The notes below the pieces were generated by a model, which saw nothing but the letters and a program-made list of their open reading frames with translations, had not been told where the DNA came from and searched no databases. From the NCBI GenBank assembly GCA_017987895.1, contig JAGNSU010000011.1, positions 1-64,000 on the forward strand: 64,000 bases of DNA, written 5' to 3'. Below, piece after piece: positions 3,199-54,397 of this stretch. The translations under genes were made by a program, and so were the position numbers. The DNA is from Flavobacteriales bacterium (GTDB lineage Bacteria; Bacteroidota; Bacteroidia; Flavobacteriales_F; PHOS-HE28). Every line of letters starts with the position of its first letter. The stretch's first letter is position 1.

Positions 3199-3719
3199 GC
3201 CCGTTCGCGCCCCGACCTGCGCGCGAGGAGTTGGACCAACAGGCAAAGCACCAAGGTGAAAACCCCGCTTGTCAGCGCCCGAAGAAAGGTAGAGAAGAAG
3301 CGATCGAAGCGGTGCAGTTCGAAGAAGAAGAGCCAAAGATGGTGCACCAGCACCAATACGCCCGCATAGGTCAGGAACCAGGAGAAGCCCATGTGCTGCG
3401 TGTCCGGGCGCATGCCGAACTCATACCCTTCGCGCGGAGCGAGAAGGCGTTGCCAGAAGGACCGCACGTACATCATCACCAGGCAGGCGGTGGTGTGCAT
3501 GCCGGCGGTGTTGTTGAACAGGTCCATCGCACCTCCCAGTAGACCGCCGATCATGAGCAACGCCCAGGCGGGCAGTTCAAAGGGCAACAACAAGAGGGCG
3601 AGCACATACAGGTAGGGGATCATCCATCCGTTGGCCACGTCCAGGTGGTCCAGGACCAGGACCTGCAGCGCCAGCAGCAACAGGACACGAAGGATGTTGG
3701 AGAGGACCGCGCCGATCAT
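3195..3719 (-). CDS. mreD: Rod shape-determining protein MreD
   Basis: 174 aa integral membrane protein with about five hydrophobic helices and little polar sequence, as expected for MreD, the small membrane partner of MreC in the elongasome. Sequence conservation of MreD is weak, so the assignment leans on size, topology and position exactly between mreC and mrdA. Both junctions are 4-nt ATGA overlaps, which implies translational coupling. Confidence 0.88.
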   Translation of the reverse strand: MIGAVLSNILRVLLLLALQVLVLDHLDVANGWMIPYLYVLALLLLPFELPAWALLMIGGLLGGAMDLFNNTAGMHTTACLVMMYVRSFWQRLLAPREGYEFGMRPDTQHMGFSWFLTYAGVLVLVHHLWLFFFELHRFDRFFSTFLRALTSGVFTLVLCLLVQLLARRSGRERA

Positions 3720-4546
3720 GGTCGCACCACTTGGGCCTCCAGGCTATCGCGTTCCATTTTGGCCAGGTCCTTCACCACATAGACCGGTCCGCTGCGTGTG
3801 AGGTCCTCGGTGAGGCGCACGGTGATCGTATGGTAGTTGCTGCTCGGGTCGTTGCGCAGTTCGGTCACCACACCGACCGGAATGCCTGGGGGGAAGATGC
3901 CATCGCCGCCGCGGGTCACCAACGTGTCACCTTGCTTCACGGGCGCATGCTTGCCGATGTCCACCACCGATGCCGTGCGGGGGTCGCTGGTGTCCCAGCT
4001 CAGCAAGCCGAAGTGCCCGGAACGCGGAAGCACCACACTGGTGTTCAGTTCAGGGTCCAGCACGCTCACCACCACGCTGAAGCGTGGACCTGCGGCGCTC
4101 ACCACGCCCACGATGCCATCCGTGCCGATCACGCCCATGTCCGGCCCGACCCCGGCCTGGGTGCCTTTATCCAGTGTAATGGTATTGCGCTGGCGGTGTG
4201 TGGTGCTGTTCACCACGCGTGCGGCGAGGATGTCGTACCGCACCTCGTGGATCGTGTCCTGGAACGCGATGAAGCGGCTGTAGACAGGGGCGTAGGAGGA
4301 TCGATCGCGGCGGCGCAGGTCCGCGTTCTCGTTGGCCAGGCGGAGGTTCACATCGCGCAGGGAGGTGTATTCCGTAATGTCGGTGCGCCAGGCGTACACC
4401 CGTCCGACCGCGGTGTTGGCGGTTCCCACCGCTTGGGCGCGGTGGTGCTCATTGCCTGCTATGGTCCAGGCGTAGGAGAGGGCCATCAACACCAGAAAGA
4501 GCAAGGTGTTGCGGATCTTGAAAAGGAAGCGGAAAAGATCGCGCAT
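3716..4546 (-). CDS. mreC: Rod shape-determining protein MreC
   Basis: 276 aa. A short cytoplasmic tail and one membrane helix (about residues 9-27) are followed by a coiled coil (about 60-85, with LRLANENADLRRRD) and the periplasmic beta domains that bind PBP2. Start taken at the codon for MRDLFRFLFKIRN, which puts the basic tail directly before the helix; an in-frame start 7 codons earlier is possible. It lies 71 nt after mreB and overlaps mreD by 4 nt. Confidence 0.92.
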   Translation of the reverse strand: MRDLFRFLFKIRNTLLFLVLMALSYAWTIAGNEHHRAQAVGTANTAVGRVYAWRTDITEYTSLRDVNLRLANENADLRRRDRSSYAPVYSRFIAFQDTIHEVRYDILAARVVNSTTHRQRNTITLDKGTQAGVGPDMGVIGTDGIVGVVSAAGPRFSVVVSVLDPELNTSVVLPRSGHFGLLSWDTSDPRTASVVDIGKHAPVKQGDTLVTRGGDGIFPPGIPVGVVTELRNDPSSNYHTITVRLTEDLTRSGPVYVVKDLAKMERDSLEAQVVRP

Positions 4547-4617
4547 GCTGTTCTCTGCTGTCCGCACACCCGCACCGCCGCATGCCGGTCCGGGCGTAAT
4601 GTGTCACGCCCCTGCCG

Positions 4618-38261: not shown

Positions 38262-38828
38262 GTGCCGTTGTTCATCAAGCATGTTCTCCCGTTCGCTGCG
38301 ATGTACGCGATGATGGTCGCGGCCGCGATCCTATTGGATCGCGGGCTGCACGCCGTTGGGTTGGACCATGTGGGGCGTTACCTGGGGCCGGTGGGTACGG
38401 TGCTCATCGTGCTGTCCTTCGTGTATTCGTTGCGCAAGCGGAAGATCATTCCCTCCGGTTCACCCAAGACCTACCTCAGGGTGCATGAGTATCTCGCTTG
38501 GGCCGGCTCGGTGATGATCCTTGTGCATGCCGGCATCCATTTCAACGCCCGCCTTCCCTGGCTGGCCACCTATATGCTACTTATCAGTGTGGCGAGCGGG
38601 CTTGTGGGCAAATACCTCCTGAAGAGCGCCGGTCATTCTTTGGAAGAACGACGACAGGAATTGATCGCGAGCGGATCCACCACCCCTGAAGTGGACAAGG
38701 AGCTCTTCTTCGATTCGGTGACGGTGAACGCCATGAAGCAATGGCGTGTGGTACACCTGCCCATCGCGTTCACGCTGGGCTTCCTTACCCTCTTGCACGT
38801 GATCACCGTCCTCATGTTCGGCAAATGA
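38262..38828 (+). CDS. Membrane b-type cytochrome-like protein (partner of the 12-heme cytochrome)
   Basis: 188 aa, four to five membrane helices. Histidines in or near helices (HEYLAWAG, LVHAGIHFNA, VVHLPIAF, LLHVITV) look like bis-His heme b ligands. The C-terminal VHLP(I/F)A block is shared with the 286-aa protein at 40820, so the two are distant paralogues. Start at GTG because AAGGAG lies 5 nt upstream; a TTG 11 codons earlier overlaps a TACTTTG element. It overlaps the 12-heme gene by ATGA. Inferred role: passing electrons between the quinone pool and the periplasmic cytochrome. Confidence 0.7.
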   Translation: MPLFIKHVLPFAAMYAMMVAAAILLDRGLHAVGLDHVGRYLGPVGTVLIVLSFVYSLRKRKIIPSGSPKTYLRVHEYLAWAGSVMILVHAGIHFNARLPWLATYMLLISVASGLVGKYLLKSAGHSLEERRQELIASGSTTPEVDKELFFDSVTVNAMKQWRVVHLPIAFTLGFLTLLHVITVLMFGK

Positions 38829-39841
38829 AGAAGGTGATCATCCTTGCCTTGATCGGGTCGTTCATCGGGCTGGTGTACCTGTTCCCGCACAGCATGCTCG
38901 AGCCCGGGGAACTGGTGGAAGGACACCAGAAGACCGGCGACGATTGCTTCTCCTGCCATCAACCCTTCGGTGGACTGCCCAATGCCAAGTGCATCGTCTG
39001 TCACACCGTAGCCGAGATCGGGATCGATACGCTGCTGAACGCGAGACCGACGCTTTTCCATGAGGCGCTCAACGATATGGAGTGCGTGGAATGCCATAGC
39101 GAGCACATAGGGCGGAACGCGGACCTGACCATGAGCGGCTTCGAGCACGCACTGGTCCCAGTAGCGATCGTGGAGGATTGCAACCGGTGCCATGCGAAAC
39201 CAACGGACGAACTGCACACGCCGCTGCCCAACAAATGCGCGGCCTGCCATGATACGCAGGGCTGGAAACCCGCGCGCGAGTTCGACCATTCCTTGCTGTC
39301 GGCAGCGAGTAAGAGCGATTGTGCGAGTTGCCACCAGCGCCCCACCGATACGCTACATGAACGCATGAAGGGCAACTGTGCCAGCTGCCACTCGACCACC
39401 GCATGGAAGCCCGCCACCTTCGAGCATGCCGTATTGTCCGCTGCGGAGAAGGACCATTGCGCAACCTGCCACCAACCGCCCAAGGATGCTTTCCACCAAG
39501 GGGCCAAGGACAATTGCGCCAGTTGCCATGGCACGAACGCATGGTCGCCTTCCACGTTCGATCACTCGGCGTACTTCCGATTGGATGGCGACCACAACGC
39601 GAAGTGCGCCACGTGCCACCAAGTCAACAACTACAGCAGCTACACCTGCTACGGTTGCCACGAGCATACACCGGGCAATATCATCGGCGAGCACCAGGAA
39701 GAGGGGATCACGAACATCACCGACTGCGTGCGATGCCACCGCAGCGGTGATGAGGATGACATCCGCATGGATGGACGGTCCGGAAGCGAAGGCGGGGAAG
39801 GTTCGCGCAAGGGCCGTGACCGTGAAGGGGAGGACGATTGA
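38825..39841 (+). CDS. 12-heme c-type cytochrome
   Basis: 338 aa. The N-terminal helix (MKKVIILALIGSFIGLVYLF) is a signal peptide or membrane anchor. Twelve CxxCH heme-binding motifs follow, from CFSCH near residue 39 to CVRCH near 308, many in units of the form CASCHxTxAWKPxxFEH. Extra His residues (FDH, FEH) probably supply distal ligands. The tail after the last heme is highly charged (Asp, Glu, Arg, Gly) and unlike the core. It is translationally coupled to the b-type cytochrome gene. Inferred periplasmic electron carrier. Confidence 0.93.
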   Translation: MKKVIILALIGSFIGLVYLFPHSMLEPGELVEGHQKTGDDCFSCHQPFGGLPNAKCIVCHTVAEIGIDTLLNARPTLFHEALNDMECVECHSEHIGRNADLTMSGFEHALVPVAIVEDCNRCHAKPTDELHTPLPNKCAACHDTQGWKPAREFDHSLLSAASKSDCASCHQRPTDTLHERMKGNCASCHSTTAWKPATFEHAVLSAAEKDHCATCHQPPKDAFHQGAKDNCASCHGTNAWSPSTFDHSAYFRLDGDHNAKCATCHQVNNYSSYTCYGCHEHTPGNIIGEHQEEGITNITDCVRCHRSGDEDDIRMDGRSGSEGGEGSRKGRDREGEDD

Positions 39842-40819: not shown

Positions 40820-41680
40820 ATGACGCGGACCACCCATACCATCTTCATCGGGACCATGTCGGCCATCGTCGTCGTGGTAACGGCCTACCTCACCTATGTC
40901 GGCTGGTCGTACTACCAGCTCCCGCTCGAGGAGCGTTTCTACCACCCGCAACATAACTGGTTCAAGCCGAGCGGCGCCTACGGCCATGGCATCGGTATCC
41001 TCGGCACCTTTCTCATCCTCTTCGGGGTGGTGATCTACATCGCGCGCAAACGGTACAACTTCATGACGAAGCAGCTCCGGTTGAAGTACCTGCTGGAGTT
41101 CCACATCTTCCTATGCACATTGGGGCCGATCCTCATCCTCTTCCACACCGCCTTCAAATTCGGCGGACTGGTCTCAGTGGCGTTCTGGAGCATGGTGGCC
41201 GTGGTGGCCAGCGGCGTGATCGGGCGCTTCATCTACATCCAGATACCGCGCACCGTGGAGGGTCGCGAACTCAGCCTGAACGAAGTGAAGGGTATGCGGT
41301 CGCAACTGGTAGAGAACCTGAAGCAGAGCGTGGGATTGGACGAACAGTTGATCCCCTTGATCGTCGGGACCACGGGCGGCGATGGTGCTGCCGCCAAGGG
41401 GAGGTCGTTCATCGCCCGGTACCTCGATGAACGCAAGGCCGTCGGCGTGATCCGATCATCACTGAAAGCGAAGAACATGGCGCGCGAGGAGCAGGCATCG
41501 GTCATCCGCATGGTGAAGGAGGAATTCGCACTGTCGCACCGCATCGGTCGATTGCTGACCATGCAGAAACTGTTCAAGTACTGGCATGTGGCGCACCTGC
41601 CATTCGCGTTGATCATGCTGATCGTGCTCATCATTCACGTGGCCGTCACGTTGTCCTTCGGATACAAGTGGATCTTCTGA
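40820..41680 (+). CDS. Membrane b-type cytochrome-like protein (first gene of main operon)
   Basis: 286 aa. Membrane helices at about 10-30, 55-75, 95-115, 118-135 and 255-280. Histidines at EFHIFLC, LILFHTAFKF, WHVAHLPFA and LIIHVAV are placed like heme b ligands. A large soluble loop (about 140-250) lies between helices four and five. The C-terminal block resembles the protein at 38262. The stop overlaps the ATG of the next gene (TGATG). Inferred as the inner-membrane entry point, exchanging electrons between quinone or the FeS-flavoprotein and the multiheme cytochromes. Confidence 0.7.
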   Translation: MTRTTHTIFIGTMSAIVVVVTAYLTYVGWSYYQLPLEERFYHPQHNWFKPSGAYGHGIGILGTFLILFGVVIYIARKRYNFMTKQLRLKYLLEFHIFLCTLGPILILFHTAFKFGGLVSVAFWSMVAVVASGVIGRFIYIQIPRTVEGRELSLNEVKGMRSQLVENLKQSVGLDEQLIPLIVGTTGGDGAAAKGRSFIARYLDERKAVGVIRSSLKAKNMAREEQASVIRMVKEEFALSHRIGRLLTMQKLFKYWHVAHLPFALIMLIVLIIHVAVTLSFGYKWIF

Positions 41681-43011
41681 TGGAAGTGCTGATCGAACAA
41701 ATAGCGATCTACGGTTCGGTGCTCCTGCTCTGCGGGCTCACCATCTTCTTCTACATGCGCAGCCTCAAGAAGAAGTCCGCGATCGTGGAGAAGAAAGTGG
41801 CGAAGGCCAAGGAGGAAGGCATGTTCGAGCCGGTGTCGCTGCATCCGTACATCGATCTGAGCACCTGCATCGGGAGCGCCGCCTGCGTGGCCGACTGTCC
41901 GGAAAAGGACATCCTCGGCATCGTGGACGGCAAGGCCACGGTGATCCTCGCCAGCAATTGCGTGGGGCATGGAGCGTGTTTCCATGCGTGCCCCGTGCAG
42001 GCCATCTCCTTGCGCATCGGCACCGAGACGCGCGGTATAGACCTGCCGCACGTCGATCAGACCTTCGAGACCAACATCAAAGGGATCTACATCGCCGGGG
42101 AGCTTGGCGGCATGGGCTTGATCAGGAACGGTGTGGAACAGGGCAAGCAGGCCATGGAGAACATCGCGAGCGCCAGGAAGCCCAAAGCCGACGGTGTACT
42201 CGATGTAGTGATCATCGGCGCAGGACCGGCGGGCATTTCCGCCACGTTGGAAGCGAAGAAGCAAGGATTGACCAGCGCCACGTTGGAGCAGGATTCGCTC
42301 GGCGGCACCGTGTACACGTTCCCACGCTCCAAGCTCGTGATGACCTCACCGATGGACCTGCCCTTGTACGGCAAGGTGAAGTTGTTCGACACCACGAAGG
42401 ATGAACTGCTCCAGCTCTGGCGGAAGGTGATCAGCGAGCACAAGATCGAGATCACCGAGAACACGAAAGTGGATGCCATCGTGCCGCAGAAGGACGGGAC
42501 GTTCAAGCTGTCGACCAACGTGGGCAAGGACTACATCTGCAACAATGTTCTGTTGGCCATCGGCCGCCGTGGAACACCAAGAAAATTGGGCATACCCGGC
42601 GAAGAGTCGACCAAGGTGGCCTACCGGTTATTGGAACCCGAGAACATCTCCGGCAAGAAGGTGATCGTGGTGGGAGGCGGTGATGCCGGTGTGGAATCGG
42701 CCATGCTGCTGATGAACGACAACGAAGTCCTCTTGGTCAATCGCAACGAGAATTTCGCGGGCATCAAACCCAAGAACCGCGAAGCTGTGACCGCCGCGAT
42801 CGATGCGGGGAAGATGAAAGCCGTGTACAAAGCCAACTTGGTATCCATAGCACCGGAGTCCGTGTTGTGCAAAGTGGGTGAAGACACGCAGCAACTGCCG
42901 AACGACCTCGTGTACATTTTCGCTGGTGGTGAACTCCCTACCGGCTTCTTGCAGAAGGCCGGCATTGAGATCACAAAACGGTTCGGACATATCGTGAAGA
43001 AGCACACGTGA
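41680..43011 (+). CDS. Membrane-anchored ferredoxin/FAD pyridine-nucleotide oxidoreductase
   Basis: 443 aa. One N-terminal helix (about 8-26) anchors a ferredoxin-like domain with two cysteine groups, C63-C69-C73 and C94-C100-C104. The second Cys of each CxxCxxCxxxCP motif is replaced (Ser66, His97). A thioredoxin-reductase-like module follows: FAD motif GAGPAG at 180-185 and NAD(P) motif GGGDAG at 332-337. Predicted to transfer electrons between NAD(P)H, FAD, FeS and the membrane cytochrome. Tightly coupled to its neighbours (TGATG upstream, GTGA downstream). No redox-active CxxC disulfide typical of thioredoxin reductase is seen. Confidence 0.85.
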   Translation: MEVLIEQIAIYGSVLLLCGLTIFFYMRSLKKKSAIVEKKVAKAKEEGMFEPVSLHPYIDLSTCIGSAACVADCPEKDILGIVDGKATVILASNCVGHGACFHACPVQAISLRIGTETRGIDLPHVDQTFETNIKGIYIAGELGGMGLIRNGVEQGKQAMENIASARKPKADGVLDVVIIGAGPAGISATLEAKKQGLTSATLEQDSLGGTVYTFPRSKLVMTSPMDLPLYGKVKLFDTTKDELLQLWRKVISEHKIEITENTKVDAIVPQKDGTFKLSTNVGKDYICNNVLLAIGRRGTPRKLGIPGEESTKVAYRLLEPENISGKKVIVVGGGDAGVESAMLLMNDNEVLLVNRNENFAGIKPKNREAVTAAIDAGKMKAVYKANLVSIAPESVLCKVGEDTQQLPNDLVYIFAGGELPTGFLQKAGIEITKRFGHIVKKHT

Positions 43012-44630
43012 GATCCCTCGCGACATACCTGTTCGTTGTGCTATCGCTGGTGGCGATGACAAGTCGCGCGCAATTGTCGCCGGGGGATCTGACCACCGCG
43101 CATGCCAACCTGGAGGGCATGAGCAACTGCACGCAGTGCCACGATCTCGGCAACAAGGTGACGAACGCCAAGTGCCTGGAGTGCCATAAGGAGATCAAGT
43201 CGCTCATCACGCAGAAAAAGGGCTACCACGCAAGCAAGGACGTGAAGGCGAAGGATTGCTTCACCTGCCACAGCGAGCACCATGGACGGAAGTTCGAGAT
43301 GGTGCGCTTCGATGAGAAGACGTTCGATCACGGGTTGACGGGCTATGCTCTCACCGGCGCCCACAAACCCGTTGACTGTCGCGAATGCCACCTGCCGGAC
43401 AACATCGCTGACAAGGAGTTGAAGAAGCGGGACAAGACCTTCCTAGGCCTGGACCAGAAGTGCCTTTCCTGTCACGACGACTTCCACGAGAGCACGATGG
43501 ACAAGGATTGCCTGAAGTGCCATAGCATGACGGCATGGAAGCCGGCCAGCGTGTTCGATCACGACAAGACCGACTTCCCCCTCAAGGGAAAGCACGTCCC
43601 AGTGGATTGCAAGGAATGTCACGCCATCACCACCAAGAACGGCAAGCAGTTCCAAGCGTTCGGCGATGTGCCCCACACGGATTGCAAGGCGTGCCACGAT
43701 GATCCGCACAACGCGCACTTCAGCAACGCTTGCGCCCAGTGCCACACGGAGAACGCCTTCTCGACCTTCGCAGGGAAGGACCGCTTCGACCACAACACCA
43801 CGCCGTTCAAGTTGAACGGCAAGCACAAGACCACCGATTGCTTTGAATGCCACAAACGCACCAGCGATCCGCTCACGGTCTTCCAGGACCGGGCCGGGGT
43901 GGCCATGAACCAATGCGTAACGTGCCACAAGGACCAGCACGACGGGAAGTTCGGCACGGACTGCGCGAAGTGCCACCAGGAGAAAGGCTGGGTCGCCGTG
44001 AAGTCGATGGACTTCTTCGATCACAGTGTCACCGACTTCCCATTGCAGGGAAAGCACGTTGACGTGGATTGCAAGAAGTGTCACAAAGGGCGGTACACCG
44101 ATCCGATCGTTTTCGTGGCGTGCAATAGTTGCCATGCTGACTTCCACAAAGGCGAGTTCGCGGAGAACGGCGTATCGCCGGATTGCGTGGAATGCCACTT
44201 CCTCACCGATGGGTTCGAGGTGAGCATGTATTCCTTGGAGCAGCACGCCACATCGAAATTCCCGCTGGACGGGGCGCACGTGGCCACACCCTGCTCCGAA
44301 TGCCATTTGAACGAGAAGTGGAAGAAAGGTGCCGAGAAGTCGACCGGAGAGAAGTGGAAATTCCGCGAACTGGCAATGGCCTGCGCTGATTGCCACGACA
44401 ACGTGCACGGGGAAGAGTTCGCACAGGCAGGTGTTACGGATTGCAAGCGTTGCCACGTTACCGGCGACTGGTTCCCCAGCTTGTTCGATCATACCAGGAC
44501 GGCTTTTCCGCTGGAAGGTGAACACAAGACCGTGGATTGCCGGGAGTGCCACAAGAACCCTGCGGAGGGCGATGAGAAATTGGGGTCGTTCAAGATCGCG
44601 AAGTACCAATGCATAGACTGCCACAAATAG
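43008..44630 (+). CDS. 20-heme c-type cytochrome
   Basis: 540 aa. Signal peptide (about 1-22, ending SRAQ) and then 20 CxxCH motifs, from CTQCH near residue 41 to CIDCH at the extreme C-terminus. Many hemes occur in units with FDH...FPLxGxHxxVDCxxCH, where the two extra His are likely distal ligands. No lipobox and no T9SS tail, so a periplasmic location is most likely. Starts with GTG overlapping the oxidoreductase stop (GTGA). The last codons overlap the next cytochrome gene by 22 nt. Confidence 0.94.
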   Translation: MRSLATYLFVVLSLVAMTSRAQLSPGDLTTAHANLEGMSNCTQCHDLGNKVTNAKCLECHKEIKSLITQKKGYHASKDVKAKDCFTCHSEHHGRKFEMVRFDEKTFDHGLTGYALTGAHKPVDCRECHLPDNIADKELKKRDKTFLGLDQKCLSCHDDFHESTMDKDCLKCHSMTAWKPASVFDHDKTDFPLKGKHVPVDCKECHAITTKNGKQFQAFGDVPHTDCKACHDDPHNAHFSNACAQCHTENAFSTFAGKDRFDHNTTPFKLNGKHKTTDCFECHKRTSDPLTVFQDRAGVAMNQCVTCHKDQHDGKFGTDCAKCHQEKGWVAVKSMDFFDHSVTDFPLQGKHVDVDCKKCHKGRYTDPIVFVACNSCHADFHKGEFAENGVSPDCVECHFLTDGFEVSMYSLEQHATSKFPLDGAHVATPCSECHLNEKWKKGAEKSTGEKWKFRELAMACADCHDNVHGEEFAQAGVTDCKRCHVTGDWFPSLFDHTRTAFPLEGEHKTVDCRECHKNPAEGDEKLGSFKIAKYQCIDCHK

Positions 44631-47332
44631 GGGCCCTCCTGCTGGTAGCTGTGCGGTTGAACGCGCAGTCGCCGCACGGCGAAGCCATGAAAATGGATTG
44701 CGCCCAGTGCCATGTACCGGCGGATTGGACGAGCATTTCGGACAGCATTCCGTTCGACCATGATCTGACGCGCTATCCGCTCGCTGGCACTCACGCACAG
44801 GTGGATTGCAAGGCGTGCCACACAACGCTCGTCTTCGATGAGGCTCCCGACCAGTGCAGTGCCTGCCACACCGATATGCACGGCATGACCGTTGGCGATG
44901 ATTGTGCACGCTGCCACACACCCCGGAATTGGTTGGTCGATGCGATCCCTGAGCTGCATGAGGAGAACGGGTTCCCCTTGATCGGTGCGCATGGCAATTT
45001 GAGCTGCGTGGACTGCCACACCTCGGAGACCGCGTTGCGCTTCGACCGAATTGGCAATGACTGTATCAGTTGCCATGCGGATGATTTCCGGGCCACCCGG
45101 CATCCGGACCACATCATGGCCGGATTTTCGGACGATTGCATCCAGTGCCATGATCCGTTGGGCTCTGGTTGGAACACGGAGATCGTCGATCACGACTTCT
45201 TCCCTCTCATTTTAGGGCACGCCATTTCCGACTGCGACCAGTGCCACACGGGAGGTTCTTTCTCCACCGCCTCGCCGGAGTGCATCAGTTGCCACCAGAG
45301 CGACTTCTCAGGCACCGCCAACCCGGATCATACGGTTGCGGGATTCTCAACGGACTGCGCCACGTGCCATACTATAAGCCCAGGATGGACACCCGTGACC
45401 TATGATCACAGTGGCTATCCATTGATCGGTGCGCACGCGTTGGTGCAGGATTGTGACCAATGCCACAACGGCAATTACAACAACACGCCGAACACCTGCG
45501 AGGGCTGCCACCTGGCGGACTACAACGGCAGTGTCAACCCCAACCACGCCGCTGCTGGCTTTTCCACGGATTGCGCGCAATGCCATGACGAGACGGCGTG
45601 GTCGCCGTCCGGCTATGATCACAACGGCTACCCACTGGTCGGGGCGCATACCACCGCAAGTTGCGATCAATGCCACAACGGCAATTACAACAACACGCCG
45701 AACACCTGCGAGGGCTGCCACCTGGCGGACTACAACGGCAGTGTTAACCCCAACCACGCCGCTGCTGGCTTTTCCACGGATTGCGCGCAATGCCATGACG
45801 AGACGGCGTGGTCGCCGGCCGGTTATGATCACAACGATTATCCGTTGGTCGGGGCGCATGCCACCGTAAGCTGCGATCAATGCCACAACGGCAATTACAA
45901 CAACACGCCGAACACCTGCGAGGGCTGCCACCTGGCGGACTACAATGGCACCACCGCCCCGAACCACACTTCGGCACAGTTCACCACGGACTGCACGCAA
46001 TGCCACGACGAAGCGGCGTGGTCGCCGTCCTCATACGATCATGCGACCACGGGTTTCCCACTTACCGGCGGCCATGCCGGCGTTGACTGCGCGCAATGCC
46101 ACTCCAACGGTTACCAGGGTACACCGACCAACTGTGATGCCTGCCACATGCCGGACTACAATGGCACCACCAACCCGAACCATGCGGCGGCCCAGTTCCC
46201 TACGGATTGCACGATCTGTCACGATGAGACCGCCTGGGGGAACTCGACCTTTGATCATGGCACGACCAGCTTCCCGTTGACCGGGGGCCACTCCGGCGTT
46301 GCCTGCACGCAATGCCATTCCAATGGGTACCTGGGTACACCGACCAACTGTGATGCCTGCCACATGCCGGACTACAATGGCACCACCGACCCGAACCATG
46401 CGGCGGCCCAGTTCCCCTCGGATTGTACGCAATGCCACGATGAGACAGCTTGGTCCCCGTCGAGCTATGACCACAACGGCTACCCGCTGATCGGGTCGCA
46501 CGCCACGGTCAGTTGCGACCAATGTCACAATGGCAACTACAACAACACACCGAGCACATGCGACGGATGTCACATGCCGGACTATAACGGGACGACCAAC
46601 CCGGACCATGCCGCAGCTCAGTTCCCTATGGATTGTGCGCTATGCCACGATGAGACGGCCTGGAACAATTCGACCTTCGATCATAGTACGACCGATTTTC
46701 CCCTGACTGGTGGCCATGCAGGCGTCAACTGCATCGCCTGCCATTCCAATGGCTATCAGGGTACACCGACCAACTGCGATGCCTGCCATATGCCGGATTA
46801 CAATGGCACCACCAACCCGGACCATGCCGCTGCCCAGTTCCCCACCGACTGTGCGCAGTGCCACAATGAAACTTCCTGGACCCCTTCTACGTTCGATCAT
46901 AGCGCGACGGGCTTTGCGCTGACCGGAGGGCATGCGGGCGCGAGTTGTCTCCAGTGCCATTCCAACGGCTATCAAGGCACGCCGACGGATTGTGATGCGT
47001 GCCACATGGCGGATTTCAACGCCACCATCAACCCGGACCACCAGGCAGCCCAGTTCCCCACGGATTGCGCCCAGTGCCACAGTGTATCGGCATGGTCGCC
47101 TTCCACGTTCGATCACGACGGGATGTACTTCCCGATCTATAGTGGAACGCACAACGGGGAGTGGAACACGTGCGTTGAATGCCACACCGACCCGAACGAC
47201 TATAGTGTGTTCAGTTGCATCGATTGCCATGAGCACGACGACCAAGCCCAGGTCGACAATGATCATAGCGGGGAGAACGGGTATTCGTACAACAGTGCCG
47301 CCTGCTTCAATTGCCATCCCAATGGGAACTGA
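44609..47332 (+). CDS. 37-heme c-type cytochrome with tandem three-heme units
   Basis: 907 aa with 37 CxxCH motifs. A short signal peptide ends near NAQ and the mature start is QSPHGEAM. Ten hemes lie in the N-terminal domain (to about residue 264). Eight tandem units of about 71 aa follow, each with three CxxCH and three further His in (Y/F)DH, G(A/G)H and NP(N/D)H. A closing three-heme domain ends with CFNCHPNGN. The equal number of CxxCH and extra His suggests bis-His hemes throughout. Likely a long periplasmic or extracellular electron wire. Paralogous to the next gene in both terminal domains. Confidence 0.95.
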   Translation: MHRLPQIGALLLVAVRLNAQSPHGEAMKMDCAQCHVPADWTSISDSIPFDHDLTRYPLAGTHAQVDCKACHTTLVFDEAPDQCSACHTDMHGMTVGDDCARCHTPRNWLVDAIPELHEENGFPLIGAHGNLSCVDCHTSETALRFDRIGNDCISCHADDFRATRHPDHIMAGFSDDCIQCHDPLGSGWNTEIVDHDFFPLILGHAISDCDQCHTGGSFSTASPECISCHQSDFSGTANPDHTVAGFSTDCATCHTISPGWTPVTYDHSGYPLIGAHALVQDCDQCHNGNYNNTPNTCEGCHLADYNGSVNPNHAAAGFSTDCAQCHDETAWSPSGYDHNGYPLVGAHTTASCDQCHNGNYNNTPNTCEGCHLADYNGSVNPNHAAAGFSTDCAQCHDETAWSPAGYDHNDYPLVGAHATVSCDQCHNGNYNNTPNTCEGCHLADYNGTTAPNHTSAQFTTDCTQCHDEAAWSPSSYDHATTGFPLTGGHAGVDCAQCHSNGYQGTPTNCDACHMPDYNGTTNPNHAAAQFPTDCTICHDETAWGNSTFDHGTTSFPLTGGHSGVACTQCHSNGYLGTPTNCDACHMPDYNGTTDPNHAAAQFPSDCTQCHDETAWSPSSYDHNGYPLIGSHATVSCDQCHNGNYNNTPSTCDGCHMPDYNGTTNPDHAAAQFPMDCALCHDETAWNNSTFDHSTTDFPLTGGHAGVNCIACHSNGYQGTPTNCDACHMPDYNGTTNPDHAAAQFPTDCAQCHNETSWTPSTFDHSATGFALTGGHAGASCLQCHSNGYQGTPTDCDACHMADFNATINPDHQAAQFPTDCAQCHSVSAWSPSTFDHDGMYFPIYSGTHNGEWNTCVECHTDPNDYSVFSCIDCHEHDDQAQVDNDHSGENGYSYNSAACFNCHPNGN
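45401..47107 (+). repeat. Tandem array of eight ~210-216-nt units coding three-heme modules
   Basis: Each unit starts at a TAT/TTC-GAT-CAC triplet series. Units 1 and 2 are almost identical over about 147 nt (45461 and 45671, exact period 210, a single C/T difference there), and unit 3 continues the identity for about 75 nt from 45881. Later units are more diverged. The pattern indicates repeated in-frame duplication, the latest being recent or homogenised by gene conversion. Confidence 0.95.
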
Positions 47333-48830
47333 GCGTACAGCGTGGATCCGCAGAAAGGCCATGGGACCATGGTCACGAGGCATCCTCGTAGCGTTCTTTC
47401 CGGCCTTCGGGATGGTCCCGATCCATGTCCAGGCGCAATCGCCCCACGGTGAGGCGATGAAGATCGATTGTGCCGCATGCCACGTACCTGAAAGTTGGAG
47501 CGCCATGCGCGACTCGCTGGCGTTCGACCATGGGCAGACCCATTTTCCATTGATAGGCGTCCATGACCAGGTGGACTGTAGGTCCTGCCACGCTTCATTG
47601 GTCTTCAGTGAGGCCCCGCCGAACGATTGCATTTCGTGCCACACGGATGTGCATAGTATGTCCGTGGGTGACGATTGTGCCCGGTGCCATACGCCGGTGA
47701 GCTGGCTGGTCGACGACATACCTGAATTGCACGAGCAGAACGGATTCGCATTGGTCGGGGTGCATAGCAACCTGAGCTGCGTGGATTGTCACATTTCCGA
47801 CAACAACAACACGTTCAACAGGGTTGGCAATGATTGCATCAATTGCCACCAAGCGGATTACCTCGCCACCAAGAGCCCTGATCATATGTTGTCGGGATTC
47901 TCCGCGAACTGCGTGGAGTGCCATGATCCATTGGGCTTCGGCTGGGCGACGGATCTCGTTGACCACGACTTCTTTCCGCTCACCCTGGGGCACGACATCG
48001 GTGATTGCGCGCGCTGCCATACCACCGGCGATCTCTCGGGCGCATCGCCCGAATGCGTGAGCTGCCATCAGCAGGATTACAACAGCACAACGAACCCGAA
48101 CCACGCGGCTTCCGGATTCTCCACCGATTGCGCCTCCTGCCATACGACCGATCCGGGGTGGACACCCGCGACGTTCGATCACGATGCACAGTTCTTCCCC
48201 ATCTACAGCGGATCGCACAATGGCCAATGGAGCGCATGCACGGACTGCCACACGAACCCCAATGACTTCTCGGTGTTCTCATGTACCGGATGCCACGTGA
48301 ACCCCCAGACCGACGGCGACCACAATGGCATGCCCGGTTATGTCTATGAGAGCAATGCCTGCCTGGCCTGCCACCCGAACGGGGATGCCTTCGGCTTTGA
48401 CCACAACACCACCGATTTCCCCCTCCAAGGGGGTCACGTCGGCGTTAACTGCACCGAGTGCCACGCGAATGGCTATGCGGGCACGCCCACCAACTGCGAC
48501 GCGTGCCACATGGACGATTACAACGGCACCACCAACCCGAACCATAGCGGCGCCCAGTTCCCCACGGATTGCGCTCAATGCCACAATGAAACCGCGTGGA
48601 CCCCGGCCAACTTCGATCACGACAACCAGTACTTCCCGATCTATAGCGGGAACCACAACGGCGAATGGAACACCTGTTCTAGTTGCCACACCAACAGCAA
48701 CGACTACAGTGTCTTCAGCTGCATTATCTGCCACGACGACGAGGCACAATTAGCCGACGATCACAGCGGTGAGAACGGATACGCGTTCAACAGCAATGCA
48801 TGCTTCTCATGCCATCCCAACGGGAACTAG
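47322..48830 (+). CDS. 19-heme c-type cytochrome, short paralogue of the 37-heme protein
   Basis: 502 aa by the ATG at 47322 (11-nt overlap with the previous gene); an ATG at 47361 is also plausible and gives a tidier signal peptide. The mature start QSPHGEAMKIDCAACH and the first ten hemes align with the 37-heme protein, and the ending CFSCHPNGN is the same, but only one three-heme repeat unit (about 375-440) separates two copies of the FPIYSGxHNGxW closing-type domain. Total 19 CxxCH. No lipobox. It presumably works in the same chain. Confidence 0.93.
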   Translation: MGTERTAWIRRKAMGPWSRGILVAFFPAFGMVPIHVQAQSPHGEAMKIDCAACHVPESWSAMRDSLAFDHGQTHFPLIGVHDQVDCRSCHASLVFSEAPPNDCISCHTDVHSMSVGDDCARCHTPVSWLVDDIPELHEQNGFALVGVHSNLSCVDCHISDNNNTFNRVGNDCINCHQADYLATKSPDHMLSGFSANCVECHDPLGFGWATDLVDHDFFPLTLGHDIGDCARCHTTGDLSGASPECVSCHQQDYNSTTNPNHAASGFSTDCASCHTTDPGWTPATFDHDAQFFPIYSGSHNGQWSACTDCHTNPNDFSVFSCTGCHVNPQTDGDHNGMPGYVYESNACLACHPNGDAFGFDHNTTDFPLQGGHVGVNCTECHANGYAGTPTNCDACHMDDYNGTTNPNHSGAQFPTDCAQCHNETAWTPANFDHDNQYFPIYSGNHNGEWNTCSSCHTNSNDYSVFSCIICHDDEAQLADDHSGENGYAFNSNACFSCHPNGN

Positions 48831-48832
48831 CG

Positions 48833-50431
48833 ATGGCTATGCGAACGCTCACGCTTTGGTCCCTTCTCCTGGTCGTATCCGGTTGCTTCGGGCAGGACGC
48901 GCTGCAGGGTGAGGTCACCTTCATCACGGCGAACAATGTGTATGTCAACTTCGGAACTACGGCCGCCATCGCGATCGGGGATACCCTTCACGTGGTGAAG
49001 GGTACAGAGGTCAGTCCCTGCTTGGTGGTGACCACCAAGTCCACCACCTCATGCCTCTGTACCGTCGTTGCGGGGTGCAAGGTCCAGAAGAACGACAAGG
49101 TCGTGCTTAGGACCCCGCATCCCGTTGCGCCGCCTTCGGGTCGGTCGACCGGAAAGGATGAGAAAGGTCCCGCCGCCGAGAAGGTCCGTGACAATGGCGA
49201 ACGTTATCGAGGCCGGCTTTCGGCGACGAGCTATAGTACGATCCCATCGGCGAGGGAGAACGATCACCGGGTGATGTATCGCCTTTCGGCCAATGCGGAC
49301 CGGATCGGCGGCTCCAAGTTCTCCGCCGAGACCTACTTGAACTACCGGCAGTTGTTCCCGGCGGGGGAGAGCAAGTATCCGCAGCGCACGGAGTTCTTCA
49401 ACGTGTATAGCTTGGCGGTGAACTATGCCCCGGACTCCACTTTCTCGATCACGCTCGGGAGGAGGGTCAATAACAGCGCATCATCCTTGGGGGCCATTGA
49501 TGGATTGCAGGTGGAGAAGCACTTCGGCGGTTTCTTCACGGGCGTGATCGCCGGGTCCCGGCCTGATATCATCGACTATGGCTTGAACGTCGGCCTGCTT
49601 GAATACGGGGGCTATCTGGGATATGCCAGGAGCGCGGAGAAGTTGGATACGCGAACGACATTGGGGCTTTTGCAGCAGACCAATGCGGGACCGGTCGATA
49701 GGAGGTACGCCTACTTTCAGCATAGCTCCACGTTCGGGAACGACCTCAACATCTTCGGTTCCTTTGAGCTCGATCTCTACGGTTTGGTGGATGGTGCACC
49801 TACCACCAGGGCCCGGCTGACCAACTTCTATCTCTCCTCCCGCTATCGGTTCGGAAAGCGGGTCGATCTCTTCGCTTCCTATGATGCCCGGAGGCGTATC
49901 GTTTACTACGAAACCTATCGGAGCGATATTGAGATGCTGCTGGACGATGATGACGCGATGCAAGGTGCCCGCTTGCGGTTGAACGTGCGTCCGATCAAGG
50001 ATATCAGTTTGAGCGCGAGCTACAGCAAGCGGTTCGAAAGTGATGGAGGGAACAGGTCCGACAATATCAACGGCTACATCACCTTTTCCAAGGTCCCTGC
50101 CATTGGTGGGCGCTGGTCTGTGCAGGTGAACCGGAACACATCGAGCTATGTGAGGAGCGATGTACTATCCGTGCGGCATTCGCGGATGCTCGTCAAGAAG
50201 CGGATGAACGCGAGCGTATATTTCCGTATGGCGAACTACAGGTACTCCACCCTCCTTGATGTGGAGGGGGTTCCCATGGAACGGCACCAGAAGTTCTATG
50301 GCGTCGATCTCTCCTACAACATCCTGCCCAAGTTGGTTTTCAGTGTGTTGGGCGAACTCTCGACCATGGGCGATGAACAGAACTACAGAGTGAACGTGAG
50401 CATCACAAAACGTTTCGACAGTAAGAGATAG
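48833..50431 (+). CDS. Outer-membrane beta-barrel protein of the cytochrome operon
   Basis: 532 aa. Signal sequence ends near VVSGCFGQ; the VSGC could be a lipobox, otherwise normal cleavage. A small N-terminal domain (about 25-100) with SPCLVVT and SCLCTVVAGC contains four cysteines and looks SH3/OB-like. From about 125 to the end, alternating Tyr/Arg/Ser-rich strands (for example YRLSANADRI, FSITLGRRVNN, KRVDLFASYDARR, NYRVNVSITKRF) indicate a barrel. By analogy with porin-cytochrome systems it may hold a cytochrome across the outer membrane; no direct similarity to MtrB is apparent. Starts 2 nt after the 19-heme gene. Confidence 0.75.
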   Translation: MAMRTLTLWSLLLVVSGCFGQDALQGEVTFITANNVYVNFGTTAAIAIGDTLHVVKGTEVSPCLVVTTKSTTSCLCTVVAGCKVQKNDKVVLRTPHPVAPPSGRSTGKDEKGPAAEKVRDNGERYRGRLSATSYSTIPSARENDHRVMYRLSANADRIGGSKFSAETYLNYRQLFPAGESKYPQRTEFFNVYSLAVNYAPDSTFSITLGRRVNNSASSLGAIDGLQVEKHFGGFFTGVIAGSRPDIIDYGLNVGLLEYGGYLGYARSAEKLDTRTTLGLLQQTNAGPVDRRYAYFQHSSTFGNDLNIFGSFELDLYGLVDGAPTTRARLTNFYLSSRYRFGKRVDLFASYDARRRIVYYETYRSDIEMLLDDDDAMQGARLRLNVRPIKDISLSASYSKRFESDGGNRSDNINGYITFSKVPAIGGRWSVQVNRNTSSYVRSDVLSVRHSRMLVKKRMNASVYFRMANYRYSTLLDVEGVPMERHQKFYGVDLSYNILPKLVFSVLGELSTMGDEQNYRVNVSITKRFDSKR

Positions 50432-50432
50432 G

Positions 50433-51215
50433 ATGATGAACAAGAAGATCGGATACATGTATGCATCGATCATCTGTGGGGTCATGGTGACCGCATGCGA
50501 TGATGGTCCCAAGACCATTGCCTCGGAAAAGTCCAATGAGGGCACTACCGGGGTCTTCTCCGGAAATGCGGAGGATGCGCCCCAAGGGGCCGCTATGACC
50601 GGCGCAGGGGTGGGGGCGGACGTGCACTCGATCACCGCGCTCGAAGTGCTTCCAACGACGAAGTACGTTTACGTGCGTGTGAAGGAGGGCGATGAGGAGT
50701 TCTGGATCGCGTCCACCAAACAGGAGGTCGTGGTGGGCAGAACCTACTTCTACCGTGGCGGACTTCTGAAGACCGATTTTCAGAGCAAGGAGTACAACAG
50801 AACGTTCGAGAAACTGTATTTGATCTCGCAGCTCGTTCCTTCCGACCATGGCAGCCAAGGTTCGGGTATGCCACCATCCGCGCCGTTCACTCCTACCCAG
50901 CAGGAGCCGGCATCGCCGATCATCGGCGAAGGATCCGTGAAGATCTCCGAACTATTGGCGGACCCGAAAAGGTTCGCCGGAAAGTCCGTTCAGGTCAGTG
51001 GCACCTGCACCAAGGTGAACCCGAACATCATGGGTCGTAATTGGGTCCATTTGAACGATGGCACCACCAAGGACCAAGACCTTGTCGTTACCACGGACGT
51101 GCTGATCCCGGAGGGCCATGCCGTAACCATGGTGGGCACCGTGGCGCTGGACAAGGACTTTGGCGCGGGGTATCAGTACGGTATCCTCTTGGAAGGCGGT
51201 ACGCTGGTGAAGTAG
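50433..51215 (+). CDS. Lipoprotein with two small beta domains, last gene of cytochrome operon
   Basis: 260 aa. Lipobox VTAC near residue 22 marks a lipoprotein. The first domain (about 65-135: ALEVLPTTKYVYVRVKEG ... EEFWIASTKQEVVVG) recalls GW/SH3-like domains seen beside cytochrome genes. The second (about 168-258: SVKISELLADPKRFAGKSV, VSGTCTKVNPNIMGRNWVHL) resembles an OB-fold domain. No heme motif. Starts 1 nt after the barrel gene stop. Possibly an assembly or accessory factor for the conduit at the membrane surface. Confidence 0.75.
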   Translation: MMNKKIGYMYASIICGVMVTACDDGPKTIASEKSNEGTTGVFSGNAEDAPQGAAMTGAGVGADVHSITALEVLPTTKYVYVRVKEGDEEFWIASTKQEVVVGRTYFYRGGLLKTDFQSKEYNRTFEKLYLISQLVPSDHGSQGSGMPPSAPFTPTQQEPASPIIGEGSVKISELLADPKRFAGKSVQVSGTCTKVNPNIMGRNWVHLNDGTTKDQDLVVTTDVLIPEGHAVTMVGTVALDKDFGAGYQYGILLEGGTLVK

Positions 51216-51235: not shown

Positions 51236-54200
51236 CTAGGAGAACAAGCGGAACGCCCGCTTCCGCACAAAGGCGATCAGACCAATGATCACCAGCACCA
51301 TGACCCCGATGTACACCCATTGCGGTACCGGCACTGGATCGCCGGCGGCATAGGAGTGGAGACCTGAGAGGTAGTAGTTCACCCCGTAGTAGGTCATGAT
51401 CACGGTGGCTAACCCGAAGAGCGAGGCCACATTGTAGGCGTACAGGCCCTGCAGCTTCGGGATGAGCCGCATGTGCAGGATGAACGCATAGACCAGGATG
51501 GTGACCAAGGCCCAGGTCTCCTTCGCATCCCAACCCCAGTAGCGTCCCCAGGATTCGTTGGCCCACACCCCACCGAGGTAGGTGCCGATGCTGATCATGA
51601 ACAAGCCCCCGATCAAGGTCATCTCACTGAGGTAGGACATTTCCTTCACGACCTTGTGGATGCGTTTCTCGTTGTGTTTCGAGAGGAAGATCATCAGGAT
51701 GAGGTTGATCAAGCCGATCACCGCGCCCAGCATGAGGAAGCCGTAGCTCCCCGCTTCCAATGAGACGTGGATGGTCAACCAATAGGAACGCAACACCGGG
51801 ACCAACGGGGTGATCTCCGGGTCCAGGTAGCTCAACATGGCCACGAGCAGCACCGTTGCCGCAAGGATCATGGTCGCTGCGGATCCGCCAAAGGACTTCC
51901 GAGTGAACAGGATACCCGCCAGCACTGTGGTCCAGGCGATGTAGATCATCGACTCATAGCCATTGCTCCACGGTGCACGTTCGGAGACGTACCAACGCAG
52001 GCCAAGACCGATCGTGTGCAGGAAGAACCCGAACAGCAGGAGCACGAGCAGCACTTTCTGGACCTTCCGCAGGTCAACGGCGGGTTTGAAGACCGAAAAG
52101 AACATCAGGAAAAGGAAGGCCACACCCAGGGAGGTGTAGAACAAGGCCAACCGGTTGAAGACGTTCAGTTCGTTCAGGAAGATCTCCGCTCCGATCCGCG
52201 CAGTGCTGGGGACCACGGCCGCACCTTGCTCCTTTTGGTAAGCACTGAGTTCGTTCAGCAGCTTATCAGGAAGTGCATAGTTGCCGGTGGACATGGCCTC
52301 CCGCAACGCATGGACGTATGTGGAGAAGAACCGGTCCGCAACGGGGTCGTTACCATGTTCGTGACCGTCCGATCGCGCACCGACCCAGGTATTGTTGGGG
52401 TCACCCGGCACCGGTATGATCTTGAGCATTCCGCCCCCCAGCACCATGTTCATGATGTTCAAGCGTTCATCCACTTTCATCAGGTCCTTCTCGTAGACCC
52501 CGCGATCGATGGGTTGCATCGCGTTGACCCTGCTGACCTCATCGCGAAGCACGTAGTCGCCGTTCGAATCGAAGAAGTCCTCGTACGCGGCCAGTGGGCC
52601 CGGGACCCCCAACTGCTCGTGTATCTTCTGGTGTTCACCCAGCTTGATCATCGGGACCGCGATCCAGTCCTTGCTACTTGCCAACATCCCCAGGACCACC
52701 TGGTCGGCGGACAGGTCGTTGATGCGCTCCTTGCGGTACACCTTGCGCATCACCTCGCGGGTCAGTGTGTGCATCGGTTTCATTCGCCCTCGATGGTCCT
52801 GGACCACGATCCTGCTGAAACGTTCGGCATGCGCGGCGGCCACGATGTTCAGGTTGTTACGCTGATCGATCACCTTTTGCGCCTGGGCCAGCGTGGGTGC
52901 CGAGAGCAGGGCCAGCACCAACACCGGCACCGTGGTCGTCCTCCTCATCATTTCGATGTTCTCCGAAAGCTTGTGGAACCGGCTCTTCTTGCTCAAGAGG
53001 GACATGATCATGCCGATGGTCAGCAGGATGTAGCCGATGTAAGAGATCCAGGTCCCCCAGAAGTCGTGGTTCACGCTCAGATATGTCCCAAGCTCATCCT
53101 GGTCGAAGGAGGACTGGAAGAAACGATAGCCATCGTGGTCCAGAACGTTGTTCATGAAGATGCGGTGGTCCTCCTTCACGTCCGATCGCTCATCTATCAA
53201 CTGTACCTCACTGGCGTAGGATGTGGCGCTGTTGGTGCCAGGGTAGCGCTCCATGATGAAGTCATAGAGCTTCAGGGAGAAGGGGAGGGGAATGTCCTTG
53301 GCTCCATAGGATATGGCCACGTCCATGTCATCCGCATGCGCGACCGCGGGTCTGCCGGCCATGCCCTTCTGTCCATAGACCATCAGTTCCTGCGCGGTGC
53401 CATTCACCTTCACCACCATCCGAAGTGCGGTCAGGCTTTCGTTCTTCACCTTGGGACCTTCGGATCCGAGTTTGACGACGGCTTGTTCCTTGAAGTCTCC
53501 GAAGACAAATCCATTGGTCCCGTCGTTGTACATGGAGCGAAGCCGCAACGGATGATAGGCTTCTCGTGGATACAATGTGTCCGTGGTCTGCGTGGCCATC
53601 ACGGTCTGTACCAATGCCCTATCCGACTTGATAAGAAGGGAATCGTTCCGGTAGGCGATGTTCACGGCCTCCGGCAGCAGCGTTTCTGTGAAGTTGAAGA
53701 GCACGTTGCGGTACCGCCTGGTCTCTCCGGCGCTGACATAGTATTCCTCCCGACCGCCCATGCCCGCGAACACCACCTTGATGGTCGGCTTGCCGTTCGG
53801 AGCCTCCTCCAATAGCTGCTTGGGGTTCGGTATGAACTCCTCTACCGCAGCCTCGATCAGGTCATTGCCGATGAGATATGAACCCCTCCAATCGTTGTTC
53901 CCCAACGTCGAAAAAAGAACGGGTTCATCGAAATGATAGACCTGCTCGCCCTGCCGCACTTGAAAAAGCAAATAGGTCTCCGCCGAAAGGAAACTGTTCG
54001 ACGATCCGTTCTCCCGGATATGCATGATGCCCTCGTAGCCGAAGTACCGTGTAACGCCCGCGCCGATCAGGATCACGATCATGGCCAGGTGGAACGTGAG
54101 CAAGGCCCACTTCCGCTGCCGCACCATCTTGAACCGCACCATGTTCACCATGATGGTGATGGCGAAAAGGACGAGCAGGAGCGAGAACCACGAGGACTTA

Positions 54201-54397
54201 TAGATGACGTGCTGTGCCGAGCTGGTGCCGAAGTCGTTCTCCACGAACGTGCCTACGCCGATCGAGGCAGCGAACAATAGGATGTACATCCCCGCAGCGC
54301 GGGTGGTGAACATTGGCGCGAGAACTTTCTGCACACCGGTTCGGAGGGTGATGAGCATTTTCTTCGTTCGGGATGAGGTTGCCATGGATCGTGTCAT
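51236..54397 (-). CDS. ccsBA: Cytochrome c biogenesis protein CcsBA (ResB-CcsA fusion)
   Basis: 1053 aa System II heme exporter and ligase that attaches heme to CxxCH outside the inner membrane. The N-terminal CcsB/ResB part has helices at about 35-110 (AGMYILLFAASIGVGTFVE; LLTFHLAMIVILIGAG) and a large periplasmic domain. The CcsA part near the C-terminus has the WWD heme-handling motif WGRYWGWDAKETWAL flanked by conserved His (LTIHVSLEAGSYG, ILHMRLIPK). Convergent to the cytochrome operon with 20 nt between stops. Without this protein the 88 CxxCH sites could not be loaded. Confidence 0.93.
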   Translation of the reverse strand: MTRSMATSSRTKKMLITLRTGVQKVLAPMFTTRAAGMYILLFAASIGVGTFVENDFGTSSAQHVIYKSSWFSLLLVLFAITIMVNMVRFKMVRQRKWALLTFHLAMIVILIGAGVTRYFGYEGIMHIRENGSSNSFLSAETYLLFQVRQGEQVYHFDEPVLFSTLGNNDWRGSYLIGNDLIEAAVEEFIPNPKQLLEEAPNGKPTIKVVFAGMGGREEYYVSAGETRRYRNVLFNFTETLLPEAVNIAYRNDSLLIKSDRALVQTVMATQTTDTLYPREAYHPLRLRSMYNDGTNGFVFGDFKEQAVVKLGSEGPKVKNESLTALRMVVKVNGTAQELMVYGQKGMAGRPAVAHADDMDVAISYGAKDIPLPFSLKLYDFIMERYPGTNSATSYASEVQLIDERSDVKEDHRIFMNNVLDHDGYRFFQSSFDQDELGTYLSVNHDFWGTWISYIGYILLTIGMIMSLLSKKSRFHKLSENIEMMRRTTTVPVLVLALLSAPTLAQAQKVIDQRNNLNIVAAAHAERFSRIVVQDHRGRMKPMHTLTREVMRKVYRKERINDLSADQVVLGMLASSKDWIAVPMIKLGEHQKIHEQLGVPGPLAAYEDFFDSNGDYVLRDEVSRVNAMQPIDRGVYEKDLMKVDERLNIMNMVLGGGMLKIIPVPGDPNNTWVGARSDGHEHGNDPVADRFFSTYVHALREAMSTGNYALPDKLLNELSAYQKEQGAAVVPSTARIGAEIFLNELNVFNRLALFYTSLGVAFLFLMFFSVFKPAVDLRKVQKVLLVLLLFGFFLHTIGLGLRWYVSERAPWSNGYESMIYIAWTTVLAGILFTRKSFGGSAATMILAATVLLVAMLSYLDPEITPLVPVLRSYWLTIHVSLEAGSYGFLMLGAVIGLINLILMIFLSKHNEKRIHKVVKEMSYLSEMTLIGGLFMISIGTYLGGVWANESWGRYWGWDAKETWALVTILVYAFILHMRLIPKLQGLYAYNVASLFGLATVIMTYYGVNYYLSGLHSYAAGDPVPVPQWVYIGVMVLVIIGLIAFVRKRAFRLFS

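Follow-up and report, generated by a model that had tools for sequence, protein, structure and literature searches.

How can a multiheme cytochrome gain or lose dozens of hemes while remaining in the same gene context, and what would such a protein do with its changing length? The question is raised by a stretch of 64,000 nucleotides from a Flavobacteriales bacterium (the window), in which the forward-strand open reading frame 44609–47332 encodes a protein of 907 amino acids, here called B, with 37 CxxCH motifs and, judged by eye, a signal-like N-terminus. Bacteroidota cytochromes with over 100 motifs, called undescribed by the source, are on record, with the high-heme forms most prevalent among Saprospiraceae (PMC11495043), and cytochromes of Burkholderiales and Chloroflexi vary in heme number by gain and loss in pairs or multiples, a variation that the same work terms largely unexplored (PMC7399161). 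Both the giant cytochromes of Saprospiraceae and a changing number of hemes in other families have been published before; the rule of 10 + 3n hemes, the fixed caps and the operon described below were not found in the literature searched, which consisted mostly of papers outside subscription.

The motifs of B are arranged as a six-heme N-terminal cap, nine regular triheme units and a four-heme C-terminal cap. The N-cap (44699–45136, + strand, CxxCH 1–6) runs to the first unit with spacings of 36, 16, 16, 34, 19 and 25, a pattern shared with the homologues and constant among them except for insertions in the first gap and for 22 instead of 16 in two loci (L037 and L038). The array follows at 45137–47065 (+, CxxCH 7–33) and takes up roughly seven-tenths of the chain. 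Its spacings are 32, 16, 25, then 32, 15, 25, and then seven times (30 or 32), 15, 25; its units measure 70–73 aa when counted from the first heme of one to the first heme of the next. The C-cap (47066–47332, +, CxxCH 34–37) has the spacing 35, 15, 29, alike in most homologues, and ends in CHPNGN. From residue 250 onward the spacing 30/32, 15, 25 recurs in units of 70 or 72 aa, and at the DNA level Tandem Repeats Finder reports periods of 210 and 216 bp with 89% and 71% matches. The preliminary description of this DNA had drawn eight tandem units at 45401–47107. They are present, and three extra histidine motifs, (Y/F)DH, G(A/G/S)H and (N/D/A)P(N/D)H, occur in all eight, but the array is longer than was drawn: the unit starting at residue 177 (32, 16, 25) also fits, so nine regular units are counted, flanked by constant caps. 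With 2 Lys against 107 Asp and Glu, the chain is acidic and Lys-poor.

The caps and the array acquire their meaning from the relatives of B. A genome-wide scan yielded 39 loci, mostly in Bacteroidota (among them Saprospiraceae, Flavobacteriaceae and Cyclobacteriaceae); others belong, by the titles of their records, to Ignavibacterium, Neomarinimicrobiota, Eisenbacteria and Thermoanaerobaculia; nine stretches from genomes of the genus and class were added, two weak loci without the N-cap signature (L059 and L060) were set aside, and fragments that duplicate the same places (L001–L021 and L064–L087) were kept out of the counts. The N-cap spacing signature was found in 40 open reading frames, and exclusion of the five cut by contig ends left 35 complete ones. 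In every one of these 35 the heme count equals 10 + 3n, with n from 0 to 20, and the values met are 10, 13, 16, 19, 22, 25, 28, 31, 34, 37, 46, 58, 61, 67 and 70. In the window, B has n = 9 and a paralogue, C, has n = 3 (19 = 10 + 3 × 3), and the ten-heme form of locus L090, with spacings of 38, 16, 16, 34, 19, 25, 37, 15 and 28, consists of both caps and zero units. The agreement is not expressed as a probability of (1/3)^35, since the genes are related and that figure needs independence, and for the 37-heme proteins of L037 and L038 the fit may be coincidence, as their later spacing is irregular. Short-read assembly can collapse whole units, so that n may be underestimated in metagenome-assembled genomes; such a collapse leaves the modulo-3 rule intact.

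Within the genus of the window, B was found in 3 of 45 genomes, the barrel and FAD/FeS genes described below being present in the same three, and among 395 genomes sampled across the class the N-terminal part of B was recovered at E ≤ 1e-20 in 8. In the two neighbouring species of the genus, B has 46 hemes (G014) and 40 or more (G040). In G040, two contigs each end inside the array, and the lower bound is the sum of the 33 hemes of the right-hand fragment, whose first heme is the second of its unit, the one heme missing from that unit and the six of the N-cap. A 19-heme form occurs in Luteirhabdus pelagi A3-108 (L043), a named strain whose genome is available. Since nature offers the series 10, 13, 16 and so on up to 70 in one gene context, electron-transfer rate, capacity and reach could be measured against length on natural proteins.

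The extra histidines keep to the unit pattern as well. A set of 372 units, from the window and its relatives, was picked on spacing alone, the histidines being ignored; each of the 372 has at least two His in the gap between the first and second CxxCH (C1–C2) and at least one between the third and the first of the next unit (C3–C1′), and 322 show the exact pattern 2/0/1 across the three gaps. This pattern is far from chance. In the alignment of single units (A4) three non-CxxCH His are invariant per unit and Met appears in no invariant or nearly invariant column; A4 holds 54 of 75 listed single units (from 123 non-redundant of 336), at least one non-unit (48318) having been left out. In the four-unit alignment A2 the invariant columns are partly a product of selection: of 63 segments aligned at first (from 68 non-redundant of 83), 12 misregistered rows were dropped to leave 51. 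Over the 35 complete proteins the number of non-CxxCH His rises with the number of hemes with a slope of 1.04 (r 0.988), and the length amounts to 24.9 aa per heme, MtrA being quoted at 25.1 (PMC7399161). The idea that every heme has a candidate distal ligand from within its unit thus extends well beyond the window, and an all-bis-His module is well supported by the presence of at least three extra His in the same two gaps of all 372 units; given a one-to-one supply, every heme would probably be bis-His. The proposed self-contained module also held up, as triheme units act as undivided blocks, 35 of 35 reading frames following the rule with about one extra His per heme. The unit borders, by contrast with those drawn earlier, are likely shifted, since in the c7 register, with spacing and ligand numbering taken from PpcA, NP(N/D)H falls ahead of heme 1 of the next CxxCH; this histidine may serve its own unit or the following one.

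The fold family of B is a known one, as matches to Pfam and to solved c7/c3 chains attest. Its units fall in the Pfam families Cytochrome_C7 (seven stretches, E 5e-44) and Cytochrom_c3_2, and the class III (c7/c3) profiles gave 148.4 bits for PF14522 (cut-off 24.8) and 93.3 for PF14537 (cut-off 25). A profile of a single unit, compared with solved chains, had among the best 60 of 106 matches the sixteen-heme 1z1n (E 1.1e-8), 3ov0 (GSU1996; 8.6e-7) and the nonaheme 1duw (4.6e-5), PpcA-type c7 reaching no better than E about 0.06. The corresponding four-unit profile matched 1z1n, presumably HmcA, at 7.5e-12 and 6r2q_A, whose record name is cystathionine beta-synthase and which we take to be MtrA, at 3.7e-7. 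An AlphaFold2 prediction of four units from 51 segments gave a weak model (pLDDT 71.9, pTM 0.40), on which no conclusion here relies and for which Foldseek, and VIA-align against three chains, returned no match. Judged from these profiles, the units of B are related to c7/c3 cytochromes, with a spacing and putative ligands of their own kind.

How the number of units came to vary can be read in part from the units themselves. For eight of the nine B units of the window the closest match among the 372 lies in the same gene, as it does for 182 of the 372 across all genes, and B units of equal length share 70–86% of their DNA sequence (48–52% for the unit at residue 250; the unit at residue 177 lay outside this comparison). 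This likeness within genes, together with the high DNA identity, points to many arrays having expanded within their lineages. Several relatives have a spacing pattern that recurs every two or three units, which is consistent with arrays growing as one to three units were duplicated at a time.

B does not stand alone. The conserved cluster begins at 40820–41680 (+) with a membrane cytochrome b-like protein (286 aa), in which five His are invariant in 30 of 30 homologues and for which searches of Pfam and NCBIfam found no family. It is followed at 41668–43011 (+) by an FAD/NAD(P)-binding oxidoreductase of 447 aa that carries a hydrophobic helix at its N-terminus and two Fe-S motifs (Pfam Pyr_redox_3 and Fer4_10), its YpdA/TrxR-like and RnfB-like matches falling under their cut-offs. 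Both Fe-S motifs lack the usual second Cys: in the first, most homologues have Ser or Thr at this position and two from Neomarinimicrobiota have Cys, and in the second an invariant His takes its place (31/31), which suggests unusual Fe-S clusters. Between G040 and the window this protein is 97% identical (41668–43011 and L063), the cytochrome b 75% and the barrel 56–57%, an unevenness that suggests a mosaic or a horizontal exchange of the cassette. Next comes A (43008–44630, +), a c7/c3-type cytochrome with 20 CxxCH, matching Pfam Cytochrome_C7 and again with a signal-like N-terminus by eye. Its middle spacing is 25, 16, 36 as against 32, 15, 25 in B, so that one operon holds two triheme designs. 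A further c3/c7-type cytochrome with 12 CxxCH lies upstream of the cluster, at 38741–39841; it was not seen to belong to the conserved gene set.

Downstream of B lies C (47361–48830, +), a paralogue of 489 aa with a signal-like N-terminus by eye and 63% identity to the N-terminal part of B, followed by a predicted outer-membrane beta-barrel with a small N-terminal beta domain (48800–50431, +; the start may be 48839). The AlphaFold2 model of the barrel (pLDDT 85.5) shows some 22 long strands between residues 135 and 542 and resembles porins and TonB-dependent receptors, with Z up to 19.2 and an rmsd of 4.7 over 281 residues, so that the modelled fold is that of an outer-membrane protein. MtrB was not seen among the 50 fold matches listed, and the barrel family (39 members) gave no convincing Pfam family and no sequence match to any PDB chain. 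In L090 the ten-heme, caps-only B sits beside a second barrel of its own (the pair at 1988–4600), and a 34-heme B is found on the same contig. The barrel of the window is followed by a lipoprotein-like protein of 260 aa (50433–51215, +) with a Cys after the signal helix common to the homologues; Pfam and NCBIfam searches found no family for it, and its C-terminal part looks OB-fold-like by eye. On the opposite strand, a CcsBA-type cytochrome c maturation protein (ResB plus CcsA; 51236–54397, −; Pfam Cytochrom_C_asm and ResB) closes the neighbourhood; it is found near the cluster in many relatives. Of the 30 loci that show where the first B-type gene starts, 29 keep the upstream order cytochrome b, FAD/FeS, A, B, with one more B-type gene standing between FAD/FeS and A in L040; L027 has no A. 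Where the end of B is visible, the barrel is the next recognised gene, directly or past another B-type gene, in 41 of 44 loci; the other three are L029, L040 (where A follows) and L051.

With the gene set at hand, the meaning of length could be considered. The preliminary description had suggested that unit number sets the length of the chain, like a molecular ruler across the periplasm; as a ruler, the count would match the gap separating the two membranes. Self-contained modules and a chain length proportional to their number would suit such a device, but within this one operon B spans 10 to 70 hemes, with 37, 46 and at least 40 within one genus, whereas the 30 complete copies of A divide into 14 with 20 hemes and 16 with 23. 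A ruler is therefore very unlikely, since B varies sevenfold next to a constant A, and it is A, if anything, that has a fixed length. The raw ranges of 33 locus pairs reveal no trade-off between the two lengths (A of 20 hemes with B of 13–46, A of 23 with B of 10–70).

The arrangement is best accounted for, with some confidence, by B being an exported modular heme wire held between fixed caps, conducting outward and extended at the surface, with electron storage as a by-product. Electrons from NAD(P)H or another cytoplasmic donor would pass through the FAD/Fe-S protein and the cytochrome b to A, a periplasmic carrier of constant size (20 or 23 hemes) feeding B, and from B to the outside, with the outer-membrane barrel as the putative route across the outer membrane. 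The constant N-cap would be the likely docking end for A, the barrel or both, and the repeat array a length-free extension that reaches past the membrane or adds charge capacity. Because each module brings three c-type hemes and three candidate distal His, modules could be gained or lost whole by tandem duplication with the chain unbroken. The hemes would be stacked continuously, the limit for electron tunnelling being about 14 Å.

The periplasm is 20–30 nm wide. At the spacing of MtrA, which covers 80 Å with 10 hemes (PMC7198977), a straight B would measure about 8 nm with 10 hemes, 32 nm with 37 and 61 nm with 70. These lengths bear on a serious rival, an electron-storage capacitor in which B stays in the periplasm, more units hold more electrons and length has no spatial meaning. 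Storage has been proposed for the periplasmic c7 polymers GSU1996 and GSU2210 (PMC10138318) and a capacitor role for the giant Saprospiraceae cytochromes (PMC11495043), and storage tolerates free variation in unit number beside fixed partners equally well as reach does. It would not need the near-constant downstream outer-membrane barrel, however, and a straight 70-heme form exceeds the width of the periplasm, so that storage as the main function is judged rather improbable. The outward wire might alternatively be narrowed to a single-chain extracellular wire of about 8 to 61 nm whose reach is set by unit recombination, no polymerisation being involved; this is a tentative proposal, more doubtful than probable, in which recombination between near-identical units moves whole triheme segments and so gives wires of differing length from one conserved operon. 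Polymerisation itself, with copies of B stacking end to end in the manner of OmcS, OmcE and OmcZ, had also been raised; a linear heme-dense chain whose constant caps could act as end-to-end interfaces would lend itself to it, but the Geobacter filament subunits have 4–8 hemes (PMC10138318), and the names OmcS, OmcE and OmcZ were not seen among the solved chains listed for the four-unit profile or among the best 60 of 106 for the single-unit profile, which leaves a filament subunit unlikely.

As an exported modular wire, B invites comparison with several known systems. The Geobacter c7 “nanowire” cytochromes GSU1996 (12 hemes) and GSU2210 (27 hemes) likewise carry tandem triheme domains on one chain, of about 70–80 aa, a size into which the nine units of B fall. 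GSU1996, with hemes 3–5 Å apart (PMC10138318), has one His-Met heme per domain, whereas the units of B have three candidate His each and no conserved Met; B further differs in its 30/32, 15, 25 spacing, its fixed caps, its acidic Lys-poor chain and its operon with a barrel. Membership of B in the GSU1996 nanowire family was considered and rejected, the His-Met ligand being unmatched and the score against the NCBIfam triheme model TIGR04257 (nanowire_3heme), 30.0 bits, lying below the cut-off of 40. The porin-cytochrome conduits MtrCAB and Pcc share with the present cluster a barrel beside exported multiheme cytochromes and a similar heme density; here the barrel partner is supported by its model and fold matches, and the cytochromes of exported type are A, B and C. 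Unlike those conduits, the present cluster has one cytochrome of variable length and includes the FAD/FeS, cytochrome b and CcsBA genes. Closer in layout are the Burkholderiales porin clusters with 24-heme and 49-heme cytochromes, in which a near-constant smaller and a variable larger cytochrome are followed by a porin (PMC7399161). Insertions and deletions of CxxCH domains are common to these clusters and to B, and their porin is OmbB-like (PMC7399161); the likeness is one of layout. Finally, the giant cytochromes of Saprospiraceae in activated sludge, termed undescribed in a work whose consulted passages mention neither a unit structure nor a count rule nor an operon, resemble B in their hosts, their very high heme counts and the suggested role in extracellular electron transfer or as capacitors (PMC11495043); the likeness is by host and heme count, and for these proteins of Saprospiraceae and relatives the cluster described here provides a concrete candidate operon.
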